Below are positions 2-10,007 of a stretch of DNA of 64,000 nucleotides, piece by piece. Positions within the stretch are counted from its first letter, which is position 1, and each line of letters begins with the position of its first letter. This stretch comes from Cytophagales bacterium CG12_big_fil_rev_8_21_14_0_65_40_12 (GTDB lineage: Bacteria > Bacteroidota > Bacteroidia > Cytophagales > Cyclobacteriaceae): positions 1-64,000 of the forward strand of contig PCUU01000065.1 in assembly GCA_002786855.1 (NCBI GenBank), written 5' to 3'. The position numbers and the translations under genes were made by a program. The notes under the pieces were generated by a model. It was not told where the DNA came from. It saw only the letters and a list, made by a program, of their open reading frames with translations, and did no database searches.

Positions 2-37
2 ATTGAAATTACGGATGATAAAGAAAAATTGAGCTGA
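2..37 (+). CDS. Possible 3' end of a CDS entering from the left edge (…IEITDDKEKLS*)
   Basis: Open frame from base 2 to TGA at 35-37, too short to identify. Confidence 0.3.
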   Translation: MEITDDKEKLS

Positions 38-154
38 TTTCAAAAAAAAGTGCCTCGCTTTAGGGCGCAGAGAACATCCTTTCGCGAAGGAAGACACAAA
101 TCCTCGAGTGTCTGTAAATGTTCGGGGCAATTTTAGTTAATAAATTTTACAATT

Positions 155-412
155 ATGTTAAACAACATTTTAAACATTGAAGGAGCCAGCGTGCTCCCAA
201 AAGAAAAACAAAAAGCTATTAACGGAGGTGGTGGATGTGGAGTCAAGGTGGAGGGTGTTTGGCATCCTGTACCAGACTTAAATGGTAATGGCGCTACAAT
301 AGATGAGGCGTCAGATAGCTTAGGCACCTACGTAAACTTCCCAACATTTGCCGGTGTTCAGGTAGTTGGGACAGTTACAAACTGGTGTTGCGACAGTTGC
401 CCTTGGAATTGA
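155..412 (+). CDS. Double-glycine leader precursor peptide (bacteriocin/RiPP-like), 85 aa
   Basis: Leader MLNNILNIEGASVLPKEKQKAINGGGGC resembles Bacteroidetes 'L.K.EQK.I.GG' leaders. Cys at 28, 78, 79, 82 (C-terminal WCCDSCPWN). A C39-ABC exporter and HlyD gene lie downstream on the same strand. Confidence 0.85.
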   Translation: MLNNILNIEGASVLPKEKQKAINGGGGCGVKVEGVWHPVPDLNGNGATIDEASDSLGTYVNFPTFAGVQVVGTVTNWCCDSCPWN

Positions 413-426
413 ATTCAATAATTTTA

Positions 427-453
427 TTGGCCTTGTGTTTCTGACAAGGCCAA
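427..453 (+). terminator. Intergenic hairpin (10-bp stem, 7-nt loop) between precursor and downstream genes; possible attenuator
   Basis: TTGGCCTTGT-GTTTCTG-ACAAGGCCAA, perfect 10-bp inverted repeat followed by aattttaaaa. Confidence 0.6.
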
Positions 454-470
454 ATTTTAAAACTCAAGAT

Positions 471-2018
471 ATGAAAGCACTACGCCTAATTATATCAGTG
501 TTGATTTTCTTTTTTGTATTTAGTTGCGGTTCAAAAAATAAAGAAGAAGCTCTTGTCATTACAGAGCCAATTATACCACAATCATCTGTGACGCTCATAT
601 TCAATAATCCAGTAAACTCTTCAATGCTAGTCAAAACCATGGGAGATGACTCTAAAACCTATACGGCAAATCTCTCATACGATACCATTCGTATTTTTAC
701 TGATACGCCCAAGATGCTGTATATAGAGCAGAGCATGTTCATTTGGCACAAAATGACCGTTGAGCCAAATGACACGATCACGATTAGGACAGAGAAAGAT
801 GCATTTAGAATCTTGGCCGATCAACAAAAGCGCGCTTGGGCTGATATTCATTTTTTTGACTTAGCTGATAGCTTAGCTAGATTAAAATTTAAGGATAAAG
901 AAAATGTGGAATACTTATTTTCTGAACCTTTCCCCAATACAAAACCAATAAAACAAGAGGAGGGGCTAATTAATCTTGAATCAAAAAGATTTACTGGGAG
1001 AATGAAGCAAAAAAGTACTGCTGAGATTCTTGAAAATAAAGATGAGTATAGGGAGCTGTTTGATTCGCAGAAAGAAATCTATCAATTCAAAATTAATTTA
1101 CTTGATTCTCTAAACGCACTAGATCAATTAAGGGTTAGCTCATATAACTATTACAATGACGAATTATTCTTTCAAGTATTATACCAGTCACTTCTCAAAC
1201 ATATACGATCAGGCGACCCCTATTTTGAAACCTTTCTTCTCAATAATTTAAATGATGAATTATTATCAAGAAACGGTTATGGCTTGTTAGATAATTTCTT
1301 GTCTACTTTTATCTCTGGCTATATCCTTAAAGGCAAATTTGAAAGGAAAGGAAACTCCGCTGTTTTAGACTATGAAAAAGCCTTAGAAGAAATGCCCAAT
1401 TATTTCTCAGGAGACATTTTGAGAAAGCTGAATTCCGTGGCAATTAAAAAGCTCATTGAACAGAGCCCTGATATCGATTTGTTCCAGGATTTAGTTCAAA
1501 ACATAAAACTAGATTCTGGATCCAAAGCCTTGCTTACTCGACAAATTGAGGACATGATAGATGCCGACAAGTTTCAAAACTTGTCAGAAGATTCACTCTA
1601 CTTAACCTCGCTCAATAATGATTTACTTCCTTTACAAAATGTTATTGAATCCAGCAAAACGGAACTTGTCTTAGTCGATTTATGGGCCAGTTGGTGCGGC
1701 CCTTGTTTCCAGCAGTTTGATGCCACAACGGAACTCGAAAAAGAGTATTCGGAAAAACTCAGTGTTATTTACATTTCCATAGATGACTATAAAAGCAAAT
1801 GGCTCCAAGGCGTAGAAAGAGCTGGCTTAAAGGATAAAAGCAGCTTCCTTAGCGTAAACCCAAGGAAATCAAAAATTCTGACAGATGAATGGAAAGTAAC
1901 CGAGATACCTAGGTTTATCTTAATGGATAGAAAAGGTAACATTCTTTCGGAAAACACATCAGCACCCGGTTCTGATCAAATAAGGACTTTAATCAATCAA
2001 CATATTGCTAATGATTAA
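471..2018 (+). CDS. Lipoprotein with C-terminal TlpA/thioredoxin-like domain
   Basis: ORF is open from 366, but ATG 471 gives MKALRLIISVLIFFFVFSCGSK, a lipoprotein signal. C-terminal DLWASWCGPCFQQF is a thioredoxin CGPC motif. Confidence 0.85.
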   Translation: MKALRLIISVLIFFFVFSCGSKNKEEALVITEPIIPQSSVTLIFNNPVNSSMLVKTMGDDSKTYTANLSYDTIRIFTDTPKMLYIEQSMFIWHKMTVEPNDTITIRTEKDAFRILADQQKRAWADIHFFDLADSLARLKFKDKENVEYLFSEPFPNTKPIKQEEGLINLESKRFTGRMKQKSTAEILENKDEYRELFDSQKEIYQFKINLLDSLNALDQLRVSSYNYYNDELFFQVLYQSLLKHIRSGDPYFETFLLNNLNDELLSRNGYGLLDNFLSTFISGYILKGKFERKGNSAVLDYEKALEEMPNYFSGDILRKLNSVAIKKLIEQSPDIDLFQDLVQNIKLDSGSKALLTRQIEDMIDADKFQNLSEDSLYLTSLNNDLLPLQNVIESSKTELVLVDLWASWCGPCFQQFDATTELEKEYSEKLSVIYISIDDYKSKWLQGVERAGLKDKSSFLSVNPRKSKILTDEWKVTEIPRFILMDRKGNILSENTSAPGSDQIRTLINQHIAND

Positions 2019-4200
2019 CTTTCCTCATTTTACTCAGCAGGATCAAAAAGATTGCGGTCCTACCTGCATTAAAATTGTAGCCAAGCATTACAAAAAAACA
2101 ATTCCAATCCAGAAGCTGCGCGACCTGTGTGAAACCACAAGAGAGGGGAGTACTATGATGGGATTGAGTGATGCTGCAGAAGCCATTGGTTTTAGAACCA
2201 TTGGGGTAAAAATGAATTTTGAAGTGCTCCAAAAGGAAACACCATTCCCCTGCATAGTCCATTGGAACAAAAACCACTTCGCAGTGGTCTACAAAATCAA
2301 AAGAGGCACAGTCTATATCTCGGACCCGGCCATTGGACTACTTGAATACTCAAAAGAGGAATTCTTAACCCACTGGATTGGGAACAATGCAAAAGAAAGT
2401 AGTCAAGAAGGGGTTGCCCTCTTGTTAGAACCCACTCCAAAATTTTATCAAGAGAACTATGAGGAAGAAAAAGGCTATGGAATCCAGTTTGTATCAAAGT
2501 ATCTCTTTCAGTATAAGCGATTATTAATACAACTGGTCATTGGACTGGGGGCAGCCAGTTTATTACAGCTGGTTTTTCCTTTTCTTACACAGAGTATTGT
2601 AGATGTGGGTATCCAAAATCAGGACATCCAGTTTGTCTATTTAATACTGATTGCCCAGTTGTTCTTGTTTTTTGGGAAAACAGCATTAGAGGTAATCCGC
2701 AGTTGGATATTACTCCATATCAGTGCAAGAATCAATATTTCATTGATTTCTGATTTTTTCATCAAACTTATGAACCTACCGATTTCATTCTTTGATGTGA
2801 GAATGACAGGAGATATTCTTCAGCGGATCAATGATCATAAAAGGATAGAGCGGATTTTGACTACCTCTTCACTTAACGTTCTTTTCTCATTCTTAAACCT
2901 ATTCATATTCGGCTTTGTATTGGCCTACTATAGCATTCAAATCTTTTTAGTCTTTCTTGCTGGAAGCGTTTTCTACTTTTTATGGATCGTAATCTTTCTT
3001 AAAAAAAGAAAAGACCTTGATTACAAAAGATTCAGCCAAGTAAGCAGTGAACAAAGCAAGGTCATTGAACTGATCAATGGCATGCAGGAAATCAAACTGC
3101 ACAATGCCGAAAAGAAAAAACGTTGGGCATGGGAACACTTGCAGGCGAGGCTTTTTAAACTTTCAATCAAAGGGCTGGCCTTGGAACAGTACCAAAGTGT
3201 AGGTTCCTCCTTTATCAATGAATTCAAAAACATTTTGATCAGCGTGCTTTCTGCCTCATTGGTCATTCAAGGAGAGATTACTTTAGGTATGATGATGGCC
3301 ATAAGCTATATAGTTGGTCAATTGAATTCGCCAGTGGCACAATTGATCGGATTTATCAGGGAAGTTCAAGATGCCAAAATCTCTTTAGACAGACTAGGTG
3401 AAATCCATAACAAAGAAGATGAAAAGCAACATGACAGGGAAAAGAACTTACCTGTGCCTATTGATCAAGACATTCACTTATCCAAGCTCAGTTTTAGATA
3501 TACAGGTTCTGATGTCAACGTTTTAAAAGAGCTTGACCTTACCATACCCGCCAATAAAATAACAGCTGTTGTTGGAGTAAGCGGCAGTGGCAAAACTACT
3601 TTGATGAAATTACTGCTCAAGTTTTATGAACTCGGTGAAGGGTCAATATATATCGGGAAAAGTGATCTCAGCACAATTTCCCAGCATGCCTGGAGGGACA
3701 AGTGTGGAGTGGTGATGCAAGAGGGCTACATTTTTAATGATACCATTGCCAGTAATGTAGCGGTTGGAGATGAGGTGATTGACAAGGACAAACTATTGCA
3801 CTCCCTTGAAGTGGCCAATCTTTTAGATTTCGTAGAATCGCTGCCCTTGAGTTTCAATACCAAAATAGGTATGGAAGGCACTGGACTGAGCACTGGCCAA
3901 AAACAAAGGCTCTTAATTGCAAGGGCAGTTTACAAAGACCCAAAATTTCTGTTCTTTGATGAGGCAACATCATCACTTGATGCCAACAATGAAAAAACCA
4001 TAATGGAAAACTTGGACAAGTTCTTTCAAAATAAAACTGTACTGGTGATTGCACACCGATTAAGCACTGTAAAAAATGCAGACCAGATTGTTGTTTTGGA
4101 CAAGGGAAGAATTGTTGAAACTGGTACGCACAAAGAATTGGTTGATCAGGAAGGTGCATATTTTGAATTGGTCAAAAATCAATTAGAACTAGGGAATTAA
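2005..4200 (+). CDS. Peptidase C39-containing ABC transporter (bacteriocin/GG-peptide exporter); start may be 2011
   Basis: N-terminal C39 signature QQDQKDCGPTC…HWNKNHFAVV…DPA, then ABC transmembrane region, Walker A GVSGSGKTT, LSTGQKQR signature, FFDEATSSLD. Confidence 0.95.
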   Translation: MLMINFPHFTQQDQKDCGPTCIKIVAKHYKKTIPIQKLRDLCETTREGSTMMGLSDAAEAIGFRTIGVKMNFEVLQKETPFPCIVHWNKNHFAVVYKIKRGTVYISDPAIGLLEYSKEEFLTHWIGNNAKESSQEGVALLLEPTPKFYQENYEEEKGYGIQFVSKYLFQYKRLLIQLVIGLGAASLLQLVFPFLTQSIVDVGIQNQDIQFVYLILIAQLFLFFGKTALEVIRSWILLHISARINISLISDFFIKLMNLPISFFDVRMTGDILQRINDHKRIERILTTSSLNVLFSFLNLFIFGFVLAYYSIQIFLVFLAGSVFYFLWIVIFLKKRKDLDYKRFSQVSSEQSKVIELINGMQEIKLHNAEKKKRWAWEHLQARLFKLSIKGLALEQYQSVGSSFINEFKNILISVLSASLVIQGEITLGMMMAISYIVGQLNSPVAQLIGFIREVQDAKISLDRLGEIHNKEDEKQHDREKNLPVPIDQDIHLSKLSFRYTGSDVNVLKELDLTIPANKITAVVGVSGSGKTTLMKLLLKFYELGEGSIYIGKSDLSTISQHAWRDKCGVVMQEGYIFNDTIASNVAVGDEVIDKDKLLHSLEVANLLDFVESLPLSFNTKIGMEGTGLSTGQKQRLLIARAVYKDPKFLFFDEATSSLDANNEKTIMENLDKFFQNKTVLVIAHRLSTVKNADQIVVLDKGRIVETGTHKELVDQEGAYFELVKNQLELGN

Positions 4201-5495
4201 TGACTAAAGAAAGTAAGCATTCAAATATAGAACTCCGGTCAGAGGAAGTTCAAGACATCCTCAACAGGCCTCCCAACTGGATGATCAAATGGGGAAATAC
4301 CGTTCTTATTGCTATGGTGATTATGGCCCTACTCTTAAGCTATTTTATAAAGTATCCAGATGTGATCATTGGTAAAGCCACCATTTCAACCGATATCCCT
4401 CCTGCCTTTGTGGTAAGCAATGTAAATGGAAGAATCGGTAAAGTCTTAAAAGAAAATGGTGAGACTGTGCTTTCTGGGGAAATATTGGCCGAACTGATTA
4501 ACCCTATTCCAACTTCATCAATTGACTACCTCGATTCCTTGCTTTCCAGTGCTTCGGCATTCGTCTCAGATTCATTGAATCAGACTTACAAAGATTTTGA
4601 GGCCATCGACTTCTATGAAGCGACAGGAGATGTTATTAACTTATTGGGGGCTTTGGAAGAATATCATTTCTTTTTATTCAATGAAAGCTCATTTAATAAT
4701 CTCCATGATTTGGAAAGTAAGCTTAACGCCAATCTGAGGCTCGAAACAATTTTAAAAAGGGAAGTTGAATTGAGCAAAATAGACATTGAAAATGCACGCG
4801 AAAAGTTTAAAATGGAGGAGCAGGAATATAAATTAGGCTATGTGACTAAACTAAATTTCCTTAATGCCCAATCCACCTTTAACCAATCGCTCAAAACAGA
4901 AGAGAATATAAAAAGGAGCATCATTCAAATGGAGATCACTATTAATGATTTAAAGAGTCAAATCAGCAATTTTAGAACTGAACGTCAGGCACAGAAAATG
5001 ACCTTCCTAGCAAAAATCCGTGAACTTATTGTCAATCTGGAAAACTACATCGTAAGGTGGAAAACGGAGTTTACCATTAAAGCCCCTATTTCTGGTAGGG
5101 TTGATTATTCAGGCCGTATTAAAACAAATCAGCTTATCAGTTCAGGTGATCGATTATTTGCTATAATACCGCCAACAGGAAACTATGAAACTGTTCTAGA
5201 CCTTCCAGCACAAGGGTTCGGAAAAGTGGAGGTGGGTCAAGAGGTCAAACTTAAGCTTGACAACTACCCCTATAATGAATATGGATTTGTGAATGGCAGG
5301 GTAAGCAAAATGGCATCGTTGCCAAAAGAAGACACTTATCAAGTAGAAGTAATACTGGAGAATGCCCTTACTAGCTCATATAATATCGATTTAGAGTATA
5401 GCCCTGAAATGACTGCAACAGCAGAAGTAATTACCAAAGATCTCCGACTGATTGAAAGACTCTTTAATTCACTTAGGTCAATTTTTGACAATTGA
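4200..5495 (+). CDS. HlyD family secretion/membrane fusion protein
   Basis: Single N-terminal TM, biotinyl-lipoyl-like segment (VVSNVNGRIGKVLKENGETV), coiled coil, C-terminal APISGRVDYSG barrel. Directly follows the exporter. Confidence 0.9.
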   Translation: MTKESKHSNIELRSEEVQDILNRPPNWMIKWGNTVLIAMVIMALLLSYFIKYPDVIIGKATISTDIPPAFVVSNVNGRIGKVLKENGETVLSGEILAELINPIPTSSIDYLDSLLSSASAFVSDSLNQTYKDFEAIDFYEATGDVINLLGALEEYHFFLFNESSFNNLHDLESKLNANLRLETILKREVELSKIDIENAREKFKMEEQEYKLGYVTKLNFLNAQSTFNQSLKTEENIKRSIIQMEITINDLKSQISNFRTERQAQKMTFLAKIRELIVNLENYIVRWKTEFTIKAPISGRVDYSGRIKTNQLISSGDRLFAIIPPTGNYETVLDLPAQGFGKVEVGQEVKLKLDNYPYNEYGFVNGRVSKMASLPKEDTYQVEVILENALTSSYNIDLEYSPEMTATAEVITKDLRLIERLFNSLRSIFDN

Positions 5496-5496
5496 T

Positions 5497-6768
5497 TTAC
5501 CTAGTCAACACCTGAGAACGATGCATATCCATTTTGAGGAGCACAAAAAGCATTACGGTAAAGGACCAGAGTGATGAACCTCCATAGCTAAAAAAAGGAA
5601 GTGGAATACCCACAACGGGGAATAACCCGATCGTCATGGCGATATTGATGGTGAAGTGGAAAAAAAGGATAGAGGCTACCGCATAGCCATAAAACCGAGC
5701 AAATTTGAACTTCTGCCGCTCCGCAATAGATATGATCCTGATCATTAAAATTAGGAACAAAACGATCACAACAGCGCTTCCAATCCAACCGTGTTCTTCG
5801 GCCAAAGTGCTAAAGATAAAGTCCGTGCTTTGTTCGGGTACATAACCGTACTTGGTCTGCGTTCCTTCCAGAAAGCCTTTACCGGCAAAGCCACCAGAGC
5901 CAATGGCAATTTTTGATTGTTCTAAATTCCAACCCTCTGCTTTCGGGTTAACCAATTCAGGCCTGAAAATGGCTTCAATCCGGCTCTTTTGGTATCCCTT
6001 GAGCACATTATTTAAGAGATAATCCGTAGTAAAGACAAAGCCCACACAGAGTATGGCTCCTACGATAATCAATATGATTCTACCTTTGGTCTTTTCAGTA
6101 AGCGCAATGGCAATAGCCGCCAATACCGCCAAGCCAATGATGATATAGATTTGAGGCAGCAGCAGCGTGAGTATAAACAGCCCAGCAGCCGTAAAGCCCA
6201 AAACCAAATAGCTTGCGGGGAATCCCTCGCGATAAAGTGGAATGATCAAGGCGGCAAAAACCATGGCGGAACCTGTATCGGGCTGCAATAATATAAGGCC
6301 AACAGGCAAAGCGATCATGGCCAAAACAATCAATTGATGCTTGAATTCATTGAGTTTGACGCCCGTGGTGGAAATGTACCTTGCCAGTAGCAGTGCCGTG
6401 GCCAACTTGGTAAACTCAGCCGGTTGAAACCGAAAAATGCCTAAATCAAACCAAGCCCTTGCCCCATTGATTTTAGTCCCAAAAACTAATACGCCAATTA
6501 ACAAGCATAAAAACAGTACATAGAGCGCAGGGGCAAAGGACTCGTAAATGCGAAAATCCAAAAGCAGGATAATAATAATCAGAAAGACAGCCCCGCCAAT
6601 GAACAAAAGCTGTCTTCCTGAATTGAGGCTTAAATCGAAAATATTTGAAGCGGATTCTGGATCGTAAACTGATGCAAAAATATTGAACCAGCCCATTATT
6701 ACTAAAATCACGTAAAGCAATACAATGGACCAATCAAGGTGCTTTAATATGGATTCTCCTTTTCTCAA
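5497..6768 (-). CDS. rodA: Rod shape-determining protein RodA (SEDS)
   Basis: SEDS polytopic protein with PLPFFSYGGSS motif, in rod cluster context. Confidence 0.93.
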   Translation of the reverse strand: MRKGESILKHLDWSIVLLYVILVIMGWFNIFASVYDPESASNIFDLSLNSGRQLLFIGGAVFLIIIILLLDFRIYESFAPALYVLFLCLLIGVLVFGTKINGARAWFDLGIFRFQPAEFTKLATALLLARYISTTGVKLNEFKHQLIVLAMIALPVGLILLQPDTGSAMVFAALIIPLYREGFPASYLVLGFTAAGLFILTLLLPQIYIIIGLAVLAAIAIALTEKTKGRIILIIVGAILCVGFVFTTDYLLNNVLKGYQKSRIEAIFRPELVNPKAEGWNLEQSKIAIGSGGFAGKGFLEGTQTKYGYVPEQSTDFIFSTLAEEHGWIGSAVVIVLFLILMIRIISIAERQKFKFARFYGYAVASILFFHFTINIAMTIGLFPVVGIPLPFFSYGGSSLWSFTVMLFVLLKMDMHRSQVLTR

Positions 6769-8648
6769 TTAGTTTGGGCTTCCTTCTTCTTACGCTCCTT
6801 TTCCAAACGCTTCTGCTCGATTGCTTTCCTTTGAATTTCATCTAAAAAGTCGCCTTTTAAGACATACTCTTCTCTATTTCTCCAATCTTTTTCGACATAA
6901 CCTTTTAAATATTTTTCCATTATCAAACCTGCGGTTGTCGCTGCTGCACGGCTACCCCAACCTGCATTCTCTACATAAACAGAAATGGCTATTTGTGGAT
7001 TTTCTATCGGAGCAAAGGACATAAATACCGAGTGATCAAGAGTTTCATCTTTAGCTCCATTTTCTGCAGTGCCAGTCTTACTGGCAATTGGAATATCTTT
7101 GATCAAAGCCCTATAAGTACCTTGCGCTGACCTAGTCATTCCTTCGATAATAGCTGGATAGTAATCTGTCCCATTTCCAGTGTAATTCTTCTCTAAGATG
7201 TTCGGAGTTGTAACCCCATCCTTTTCAAACGCCTTTACCAAATGCGGTTTTACATAATATCCCCTATTGGCAATGATTGCAGCAAGGTTAGCTACCTGCA
7301 AGGGTGTCACTAAGATTTCTCCTTGCCCAATTGATATTGACTGGATATTACTGTATGCCCAACGTCTTTCTCCAATTAAGCTGTTATAATACTTAACATC
7401 TGGTATTAGACCTCTCGCCTCTCCAGGAACATCAAGACCTAGCGGAGATCCAAATCCAAACTTTCGTACAGCCGTTGCCCATTTGGCCAAACCTATGGGC
7501 GTATCTATGAAAATATTTGGGTCTTCCTTTTGATTTACAACCCTTCTCATAACCTCTAGGAAGTAGTTATTTGAAGACTTTTCAATTCCCCTAGCTACAT
7601 CATAATAACCTGCCGGAGCGTGATCACCAATTTTCGTTATATCACAGTAAATCTGTTCATTAGCCCCAATTACCCCTGCATCCAAAGCAATTAATGCCTG
7701 TACTGTTTTAAAAACTGATCCTGCAGGGTATTGACCCATATAAGCTCTATTATATAGGGGTTTGGTGGTGTCTGAGGCAAGCTTTTGGTAATTATCCCCA
7801 AACTGTCTTCCAGTTAATAAGTTTGGGTCGTAGGAAGGTGCAGTAGCCAACACTAAAATTTCACCTGTGGCAGGTTCAATCGCAACGATACTTCCCACTT
7901 TTCCTTCTAGCAATTTTTCAGCGTATGCCTGCAAATCTTTTTTAATGGTTGTGATCAGGTTAATGCCTGGTACAGAAGTAGTGTCGTAAGCGCCATCTTT
8001 AAAAGAGCCTTTTTCAATTCCCCTTACATTCACCTTTTTATAACTGACCCCTCGCTGACCCCGCAATTGTTTTTCGTAATATTCTTCCAGGCCTGTAATT
8101 CCCTTGTTGTCTCCAGATTGATAATAGCCCGTAGTATCTCTCTCCAATTGCCTTTGGCTAATCTCTCCAGTGTATCCCACTTCACTGGCGAGTATTGGAG
8201 CGGTATAACCACGAACGGTCCTAGGATTCACGAAAAAGCCCTGGTAATTATAAAGCATGTCTTGGATCCGGGCGTATTCCTCTTGTGAAATTTTCTTTAG
8301 AAATGCCGAGGGCTTGACTGCGGAATACTTTTTCGCGGCCTTCATATTGGTCATGAAGGTTTCTTTGTCAATGCCCAATAAATCACAAAAAGCAGTTGTA
8401 TCTGGAATCCTTACATCTTTTGGGATGACCATTAAATCATAAATTGGCTCGTTGTAAACCAGAAGCTCCCCATCTCTGTCGTAAATCAAACCACGGAAAG
8501 GATATTCAACAATGCGTTGAACGATATTTCGCTCAGCCTTCGTGGCGTAATTTTCGTCCAAAACCTGAAGTGCAAATAACTTGATGAGAAAAATGACTCC
8601 GATTAAAATGAAAATTCCCTGAATAATAAACCTTCTACTCTCCCACAT
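6765..8648 (-). CDS. mrdA: Penicillin-binding protein 2
   Basis: Transpeptidase motifs (PAGSVFKT, SSNNYF, SKTGTAENG). Between mreD and rodA. Confidence 0.93.
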   Translation of the reverse strand: MWESRRFIIQGIFILIGVIFLIKLFALQVLDENYATKAERNIVQRIVEYPFRGLIYDRDGELLVYNEPIYDLMVIPKDVRIPDTTAFCDLLGIDKETFMTNMKAAKKYSAVKPSAFLKKISQEEYARIQDMLYNYQGFFVNPRTVRGYTAPILASEVGYTGEISQRQLERDTTGYYQSGDNKGITGLEEYYEKQLRGQRGVSYKKVNVRGIEKGSFKDGAYDTTSVPGINLITTIKKDLQAYAEKLLEGKVGSIVAIEPATGEILVLATAPSYDPNLLTGRQFGDNYQKLASDTTKPLYNRAYMGQYPAGSVFKTVQALIALDAGVIGANEQIYCDITKIGDHAPAGYYDVARGIEKSSNNYFLEVMRRVVNQKEDPNIFIDTPIGLAKWATAVRKFGFGSPLGLDVPGEARGLIPDVKYYNSLIGERRWAYSNIQSISIGQGEILVTPLQVANLAAIIANRGYYVKPHLVKAFEKDGVTTPNILEKNYTGNGTDYYPAIIEGMTRSAQGTYRALIKDIPIASKTGTAENGAKDETLDHSVFMSFAPIENPQIAISVYVENAGWGSRAAATTAGLIMEKYLKGYVEKDWRNREEYVLKGDFLDEIQRKAIEQKRLEKERKKKEAQTN

Positions 8649-9160
8649 TATAATTTTGACTTAGCATAAAAAAGGTACTGAATAGCGAGCATAAAAACCA
8701 GCGAAATTATACTTGTAACGAACATTTTGAGTAAAGAAAGCCCAATAAGTTGGCCTCCACTTTCGAGTAAAAAAACAGCTAGCGAATGCAAGGCAATTAA
8801 GGGTAAGGCGTAAATAATGAACCATGTCAGGCCATAGCTTGAGATCATTGGCAAATCATTCACTTCATAACCACTGCGAGGTTTGTTTATCGCCATCCAA
8901 TAAGGGCGGATGAACATAATGAGTACACTGGCCGCAGCATGAATTCCTGTGGTGCTATAAAAGAGGTCCACGGTCAGGCCCAGTAATAAACCTGTGATCA
9001 TCGCACCTGCAAAGCCCATTTCCAAAGGCAAAAACAATAGCGCCATTAGGTACAAAAAGCAAAAACCAACGCCAAAAAGCACGAGGTATTTGAGCACGAA
9101 AACCTGAACGAGTGCCAACACTAGAAAAGTGAAGATTAACAAGATCAAGTTTCTACTCAT
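8648..9160 (-). CDS. mreD: Rod shape-determining protein MreD
   Basis: Small polytopic protein between mreC and mrdA. Confidence 0.85.
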   Translation of the reverse strand: MSRNLILLIFTFLVLALVQVFVLKYLVLFGVGFCFLYLMALLFLPLEMGFAGAMITGLLLGLTVDLFYSTTGIHAAASVLIMFIRPYWMAINKPRSGYEVNDLPMISSYGLTWFIIYALPLIALHSLAVFLLESGGQLIGLSLLKMFVTSIISLVFMLAIQYLFYAKSKL

Positions 9161-10007
9161 TGTCTTTTATCGGGTTTTTGGCGGCCAAAGAATCAATTTC
9201 TTGACGATCCACATTTTCGATTACATATACATAGGCCAGTTTACCAAAGTCTACACTTAAAGCTACATCTACTTTCAAGTCTCTTTGATTTGGATCGGGA
9301 GCAACCGAAGCCACAGTGCCAATGAGCAAATCTTTTGGATAGAGCGTACTAAAACCAGAGGTTAAAACGGAGTCTCCAACCGCAATATTCACCTCTCTGG
9401 TGACATACAAAAGTTGGGCGTGCCTAGGGTCTCTACTATCGCCATCCCATTGAATGGTTGCGAAGCGGCCAGAGTTTTTATGCTTGGCAGAAACCTGATT
9501 CTGGGCATTCAACAAAGAAATACCCACCGAAAAATTTGCAGACACCGACCTTATTTTACCAACGATTCCCCGCTGATTAATGACTCCCATGCCCGGCTGA
9601 ATACCATCCTTCTCTCCTTTATTGATCATAAAGAAGTTGTGGCTTTGCCGAATAGAATTATTGATAATCTCAGCTGCCCGAAGTATGTATTGAACTGAAT
9701 CGGTAGAATCTGCCTCGATGGCAAAGACTTCTGTAGAATCAAGCATGGCTTTAGGCCTTTGCAGCAACAATTGCCTAAGTCTGGCATTTTCTTGGGCCAG
9801 CTCAGTATTTACCTGTTTTAGCCCAAAATAATCGCCCACATTATCGGCTGTCTGATTTACCCTACCCACCAAACCTGCCGTGGTTTTAAAGTAGGCATTT
9901 CTCTGGTAGTCATTATTGCCTACAATCAACCACAAGCAAAAAAGCTCCAGAATCAAAAATGTGAAAAAGGCTCTGTATTTATAAAGAAAAGCAAATAATT
10001 GGCCCAT
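9153..10007 (-). CDS. mreC: Rod shape-determining protein MreC
   Basis: N-terminal TM, coiled coil and MreC-type GVINQRGIVGKI…DSVLTSGFSTLYPKDLLIGTV. Confidence 0.93.
   Translation of the reverse strand: MGQLFAFLYKYRAFFTFLILELFCLWLIVGNNDYQRNAYFKTTAGLVGRVNQTADNVGDYFGLKQVNTELAQENARLRQLLLQRPKAMLDSTEVFAIEADSTDSVQYILRAAEIINNSIRQSHNFFMINKGEKDGIQPGMGVINQRGIVGKIRSVSANFSVGISLLNAQNQVSAKHKNSGRFATIQWDGDSRDPRHAQLLYVTREVNIAVGDSVLTSGFSTLYPKDLLIGTVASVAPDPNQRDLKVDVALSVDFGKLAYVYVIENVDRQEIDSLAAKNPIKDNE

Follow-up and report, generated by a model that had tools for sequence, protein, structure and literature searches.

A C39 exporter locus of a Cytophagales bacterium, probably the 3' half of a multi-peptide locus with a VKOR-thioredoxin fusion

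The peptide export genes at the left edge of this contig are probably part of a larger secretion locus. The window, i.e., the whole stretch of 64,000 nucleotides that was analysed (G000:C43:1-64000), starts at base 1 of contig C43. In the best explanation, which we consider fairly likely, these genes form the 3' half of a multi-peptide locus in which a VKOR-thioredoxin fusion oxidises the peptides, a C39 ABC transporter exports them, and a lipoprotein serves as an accessory. The cluster makes and exports small, cysteine-rich peptides, which by analogy with known systems are probably antibacterial.

A preliminary description of this DNA had reported a minimal export locus of four genes. The precursor, the CGPC lipoprotein, the C39 ABC exporter and the HlyD adaptor were all found as placed there, on one strand (Table 1). 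The overlapping gene ends (2011/2018 and 4200/4200) were borne out, as was the right boundary, where a RodA-type gene lies on the opposite strand (5497-6768). The locus can, however, no longer be called minimal. The contig end truncates its left side, so that the window alone gives no measure of whether further genes are absent; moreover, the precursors on contig C37 of the same genome, and those of both relatives, L041 and L042, come after a VKOR-thioredoxin fusion. Open reading frames were read and the locus proteins scanned for families in the window, L041, L042 and L043 (on contig C37), and no lanthipeptide, radical-SAM or YcaO enzyme was recognised among these locus genes. The preliminary description had said the same of the stretch up to the next operon, and it holds in the two relatives. 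PADLOC returned generic ATPase-type matches only. The short ORF running in from the contig edge is possibly, on weak evidence, the 3' end of the array gene before it, since a lipoprotein gene breaks off at the end of C37.

Table 1 Features of the locus in the window and on contig C37
Feature	Sequence	Position	Strand	Remarks
ORF running in from contig edge	Window	2..37	+	IEITDDKEKLS*; from the sequence
Conserved 5' block	Window	76..187	+	Two hairpins, start codon, first ~11 codons
Precursor leader peptide	Window	155..229	+	Ends ...KAINGG; conserved in homologues
Core peptide and stop	Window	230..412	+	60 aa, 4 Cys, ends NWCCDSCPWN
TlpA-like lipoprotein	Window	471..2018	+	From ATG; lipobox Cys, ~370-aa region, C-terminal thioredoxin domain
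C39 peptidase-containing ABC exporter, PCAT type	Window	2011..4200	+	From ATG; catalytic residues intact
HlyD-type periplasmic adaptor	Window	4200..5495	+	HlyD_3 1.1e-14
VKOR-thioredoxin fusion	L043 (C37)	6141-7715		
Precursor 1	L043 (C37)	7830-8033		Two core Cys
Secreted protein	L043 (C37)	8086-8751		221 aa, unclear family
Precursor 2	L043 (C37)	8845-9084		Ends WCCDSCDEATWLNIQ
Further copies of 5' block	L043 (C37)	7751-7862, 8767-8878		
Further copies of 5' block	L042	6923-7033, 8943-9053, 10693-10803		

The precursor (155-412) has 85 aa and a predicted cleavage site after Gly25, between KAINGG and GGCGV, with Ile at position -4. It thus has the features of a GG-leader precursor, namely a leader of 15-30 aa ending in GG, a hydrophobic residue at -4 and an adjoining C39 exporter. 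Cysteines stand at residues 28, 77, 78 and 81. Other genomes have homologues in the same gene context, and across the remaining 56 kb of the window the leader pattern occurs in only four ORFs, none with core cysteines. The precursor is therefore not a chance reading frame. Its search revealed two paralogues on C37, whereas a plasmid collection yielded no match. The core type CC-x-SC occurs in 11 precursors, among them two of the three in this genome; the exception is precursor 1. The genome's second C39 locus (L044, G000:C33) has a possible GG precursor of 60 aa with four core cysteines, on the minus strand at 9766. Elsewhere, locus L136 combines one VKOR fusion, one C39 ABC and one HlyD with eleven or more different GG precursors. 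L127, L132 and L135 consist of repeating arrays of VKOR fusion, shortened or split C39 ABC frame and precursor, and the leader of these precursors is nearly constant (MKKLSLEMLRLTSDEVLGRSQMKKITGG).

Export of a GG-leader peptide by the C39 ABC transporter, as proposed earlier, is supported. The exporter contains Peptidase_C39 (Pfam, 2.3e-36), ABC_membrane and ABC_tran, keeps the catalytic Gln, Cys, His and Asp of C39 exporters, and appears active from its sequence. It aligns end to end with PCAT1 (E 4e-100) and ComA, and differs from them in being of the Gram-negative type, with an HlyD adaptor.

Contig C37 carries the VKOR fusion, the only VKOR of the genome, next to precursors 1 and 2. Precursor 1 is followed directly by the 221-aa secreted protein, which sits where a TlpA lipoprotein sits behind precursor 2; a second TlpA lipoprotein gene then follows and runs off the contig end. 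In L041 and L042, the order VKOR fusion, [precursor, TlpA]n, C39 ABC is found on single contigs. L041 belongs to a metagenome-assembled genome labelled Chitinophagaceae and has HlyD after the C39 ABC, and L042, labelled Flavobacteriaceae, is cut inside the ABC. Given this joined order in both relatives, C37 most likely adjoins C43, and the window would be the right half of one multi-peptide secretion locus. The two contigs could instead hold separate loci that share paralogous cassettes, and indeed no sequence overlap spans the gap. This is quite improbable, as C37 has no exporter before its contig end, C43 starts at a precursor, the relatives have the joined order, and the 5' block is 96% identical between the contigs. 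The missing left half thus very probably carries a disulfide-making membrane enzyme. Modification enzymes just upstream of base 1 had been named beforehand as evidence against the earlier reading; the one expected there strengthens the case for disulfides instead.

The 5' block comprises two hairpins, CCTTTCGCGAAGG and AGACAC-N10-GTGTCT, and extends over ~110 nt from CCTTTCGCGAAGG to codon 11. It accompanies every one of the three precursors in this genome and three in L042. The untranslated part is 96-97% identical among the three copies of this genome, and the block shares 90% identity with L042, whereas cores and lipoproteins diverge. Searches for a 20-mer of the block, with one mismatch allowed, through 395 genomes of the family and 396 of the phylum gave no hits beyond these two genomes, and an Rfam search matched no family. 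Folding of the single strands gave z-scores between -1.1 and -3.7, and some copies do not keep the outer stem; on these two grounds no regulatory RNA is claimed. The near-identity of the block in two distant genomes could reflect a cis-regulatory RNA or a cassette boundary. Compared with L042, identity is 90% for the exporter (amino acids, over 535 aa), yet 45% for the VKOR fusion and 65% for a helicase. From these unequal identities, the locus looks mosaic, partly exchanged between lineages.

Within the system, the VKOR fusion is of greatest interest. It consists of VKOR and Thioredoxin_4 domains, and both VKOR loop cysteines, the VKOR CxxC and the thioredoxin CxxC are kept in at least 63 of 64 homologues. 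The C37 protein, which lies outside the window, thus has the domains and active-site cysteines of the bacterial disulfide-forming VKOR-thioredoxin fusions. It differs from those known by an additional N-terminal C39-like domain and by gene linkage to GG peptides. Its first ~130 residues align with the C39 domain of the exporter (hhalign probability 98.8, E 1.2e-16), and the N-terminus of the L041 fusion matches Peptidase_C39 in Pfam (1.8e-6). Foldseek matched the domain to the peptidase domains of ComA and PCAT1 and to the C39-like domain of HlyB (3zua), with target TM-scores of 0.63-0.73; the underlying AlphaFold model has a mean pLDDT of 50 and is best within this domain and poor outside it. 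The 64 fusions have not retained the Gln, Cys and His common to 42 of 42 exporters. The N-terminus is a C39 fold that has lost its catalytic Cys and His. The C39-like domain of HlyB, likewise catalytically dead, provides a precedent for docking. It sits on the transporter, while the domain described here sits on an oxidase. By this analogy, the latter is probably a leader-docking domain.

With the fusion as query, matches were obtained in 34 of 197 family genomes and 33 of 297 phylum genomes. Among 64 full-length fusions, several of them in cut loci, 50 lie within 5 kb of a GG precursor and 47 within 9 kb of a C39 ABC on the same strand; for the other 17, no C39 ABC was found nearby. By our own estimate from about three C39 loci in 4 Mb, chance alone would place a C39 gene at such a distance in one or two percent of fusions. 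Disulfide pairing should leave the cores with even numbers of cysteines, and such numbers were counted for 98 of the 109 cores (binomial p 1.3e-18, an optimistic value for a pattern-based list of precursors near such machinery that includes related members). Disulfide-based maturation, proposed earlier from the window alone, is therefore well supported at the sequence level, by the fusion beside the precursors and by the even cysteine counts. Since the fusion usually adjoins cysteine-rich GG precursors and a C39 ABC, and the cores mostly have even cysteine numbers, it is the likely oxidase, rather than the TlpA lipoprotein.

The lipoprotein had been proposed as the partner in maturation. It has a signal peptide with the lipobox FVFSC (Cys19 is invariant in five homologues), a ~370-aa region whose second half is helical, and a C-terminal thioredoxin domain with the motif WASWCGPC (Pfam Thioredoxin_8, 1e-12). 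A role as main disulfide maker for this precursor, in a locus that would then be minimal, is suggested by its intact CGPC motif, its place directly downstream of the precursor, and the occurrence of TlpA behind 7 of the 11 CC-x-SC precursors as compared with 9 of 98 others (Fisher p = 9e-5). This link is weaker (2/5 against 8/96, p = 0.075) in a reduced set that leaves out the genome of the query, loci fetched by similarity to the query, and L163, which meets a contig edge downstream. TlpA/ResA relatives mostly act as reductants, and the lipoprotein has no electron sink such as an oxidase requires. Furthermore, the VKOR fusion of the same genome adjoins the sibling precursors, and the genus-mates G272 and G288 have the system of VKOR, precursor, ABC and HlyD without TlpA. 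We consider it very doubtful that TlpA is the main disulfide maker. The earlier proposal of TlpA as partner is thus supported in part. In view of the weakened link, the genus-mates and the other lipoprotein-like partners, the TlpA lipoprotein is an accessory, associated chiefly with CC-x-SC cores.

Alternatively, the lipoproteins next to precursors could be immunity or peptide-capture proteins, one per peptide, in which the thioredoxin domain is incidental. There is often one partner gene per precursor, and partners are far more divergent than the exporter (54% against 90% aa identity). Their type also varies between TlpA, the 221-aa secreted protein of L043, and the ~410-aa lipoprotein-like proteins without thioredoxin motif that replace TlpA behind CC-x-SC precursors in L158 and L174. 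WCxxC is nevertheless retained in all five aligned TlpA partners. In bacteroidetocins, moreover, the gene for the thiol oxidoreductase did not confer protection, and producers inhibited themselves (PMC6671954). Immunity or capture is thus an unlikely reading, and a disulfide isomerase or reductase is favoured over immunity.

With the fusion as oxidase and TlpA as accessory, maturation might proceed as follows. The precursors would be synthesised with a GG leader. Cleavage after GG would fall to the C39 domain of the ABC transporter, and the core would be exported through the ABC, HlyD and an unlinked outer-membrane channel of TolC type. In the periplasm, the thioredoxin domain of the fusion would oxidise cysteine pairs, and quinone would receive the electrons by way of the VKOR domain. 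The dead C39-like domain probably binds leaders or substrates of the exporter and would thereby recruit the oxidase to where export takes place. Beside the precursor, the lipoprotein may act as a cargo-specific accessory, most likely an isomerase or reductase correcting the vicinal cysteines of CC-x-SC. The mature peptide would most likely be antibacterial, disulfide-bonded and similar to the bacteroidetocins, the activity being judged from its kind. The exported peptides may instead be signals, not toxins. GG-peptide exporters of the ComA type also carry signals, and the core in the window, judged from its sequence, is not strongly cationic. We give this possibility little weight, as no receptor or regulator gene was recognised in the region and a locus with several rather dissimilar cores is easier to reconcile with toxins than with one signal.

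The closest known systems are the bacteroidetocins, class II-like bacteriocins of Bacteroidales (PMC6671954; PMC8546649). Their loci require genes for a TM protein, the peptide and a thiol oxidoreductase, and gel shifts indicate disulfides; the TM protein spans the membrane five times and has no known function (PMC6671954). The leader has 15-16 aa and the mature peptide about 42 aa with at least two cysteines (PMC6671954). Bacteroidetocins kill Bacteroidales through BamA (PMC8546649). Shared features are a Bacteroidota host, a four-Cys peptide whose GG leader is removed by a C39 peptidase/ABC exporter, an adjoining thiol oxidoreductase gene, and probably a multi-TM protein in the locus. As for the gene set, the C39 ABC and a thioredoxin gene are in the window and the VKOR fusion is on the presumed neighbouring contig. 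Unlike bacteroidetocin loci, this locus has three precursors, each with its own secreted or lipoprotein partner, an HlyD, and a VKOR-thioredoxin fusion with a dead C39 domain. The peptide has enough cysteines for the family, but its leader (25 aa) and core (60 aa) fall outside the family lengths, and membership is therefore not claimed. Class IIa bacteriocins of the pediocin type share the double-glycine leader, disulfides and a C39 exporter. This locus differs by a longer core, a Gram-negative host and a dedicated oxidase, and class IIa was rejected as the motif YGNGV/YGNGVxC is absent from the core. The locus is best grouped, as a variant, with the bacteroidetocin-like, class II disulfide-peptide systems.

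Beyond this genome, the fusions may represent a widespread enzyme class of Bacteroidota in which a quinone-linked VKOR-thioredoxin protein joined to a dead copy of the leader protease introduces leader-guided disulfides into GG peptides, either ahead of export or in the course of it; TlpA lipoproteins specific to the cargo would be optional bond editors. This generalisation is tentative, and we hold its chances to be slightly less than even. No paper joining VKOR, C39 and Bacteroidetes was found among the open-access papers searched, although an earlier report of C39-VKOR fusions may exist. Bacteroides was reported to have no general disulfide machinery (PMC6671954). The finding links a large, mostly uncharacterised set of cysteine-rich GG peptides of Bacteroidota to one likely maturation enzyme. 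The VKOR fusion together with the C39 ABC offers a handle for genome mining, and the locus gives a testable idea of how disulfides may be placed on exported peptides in Bacteroidota.
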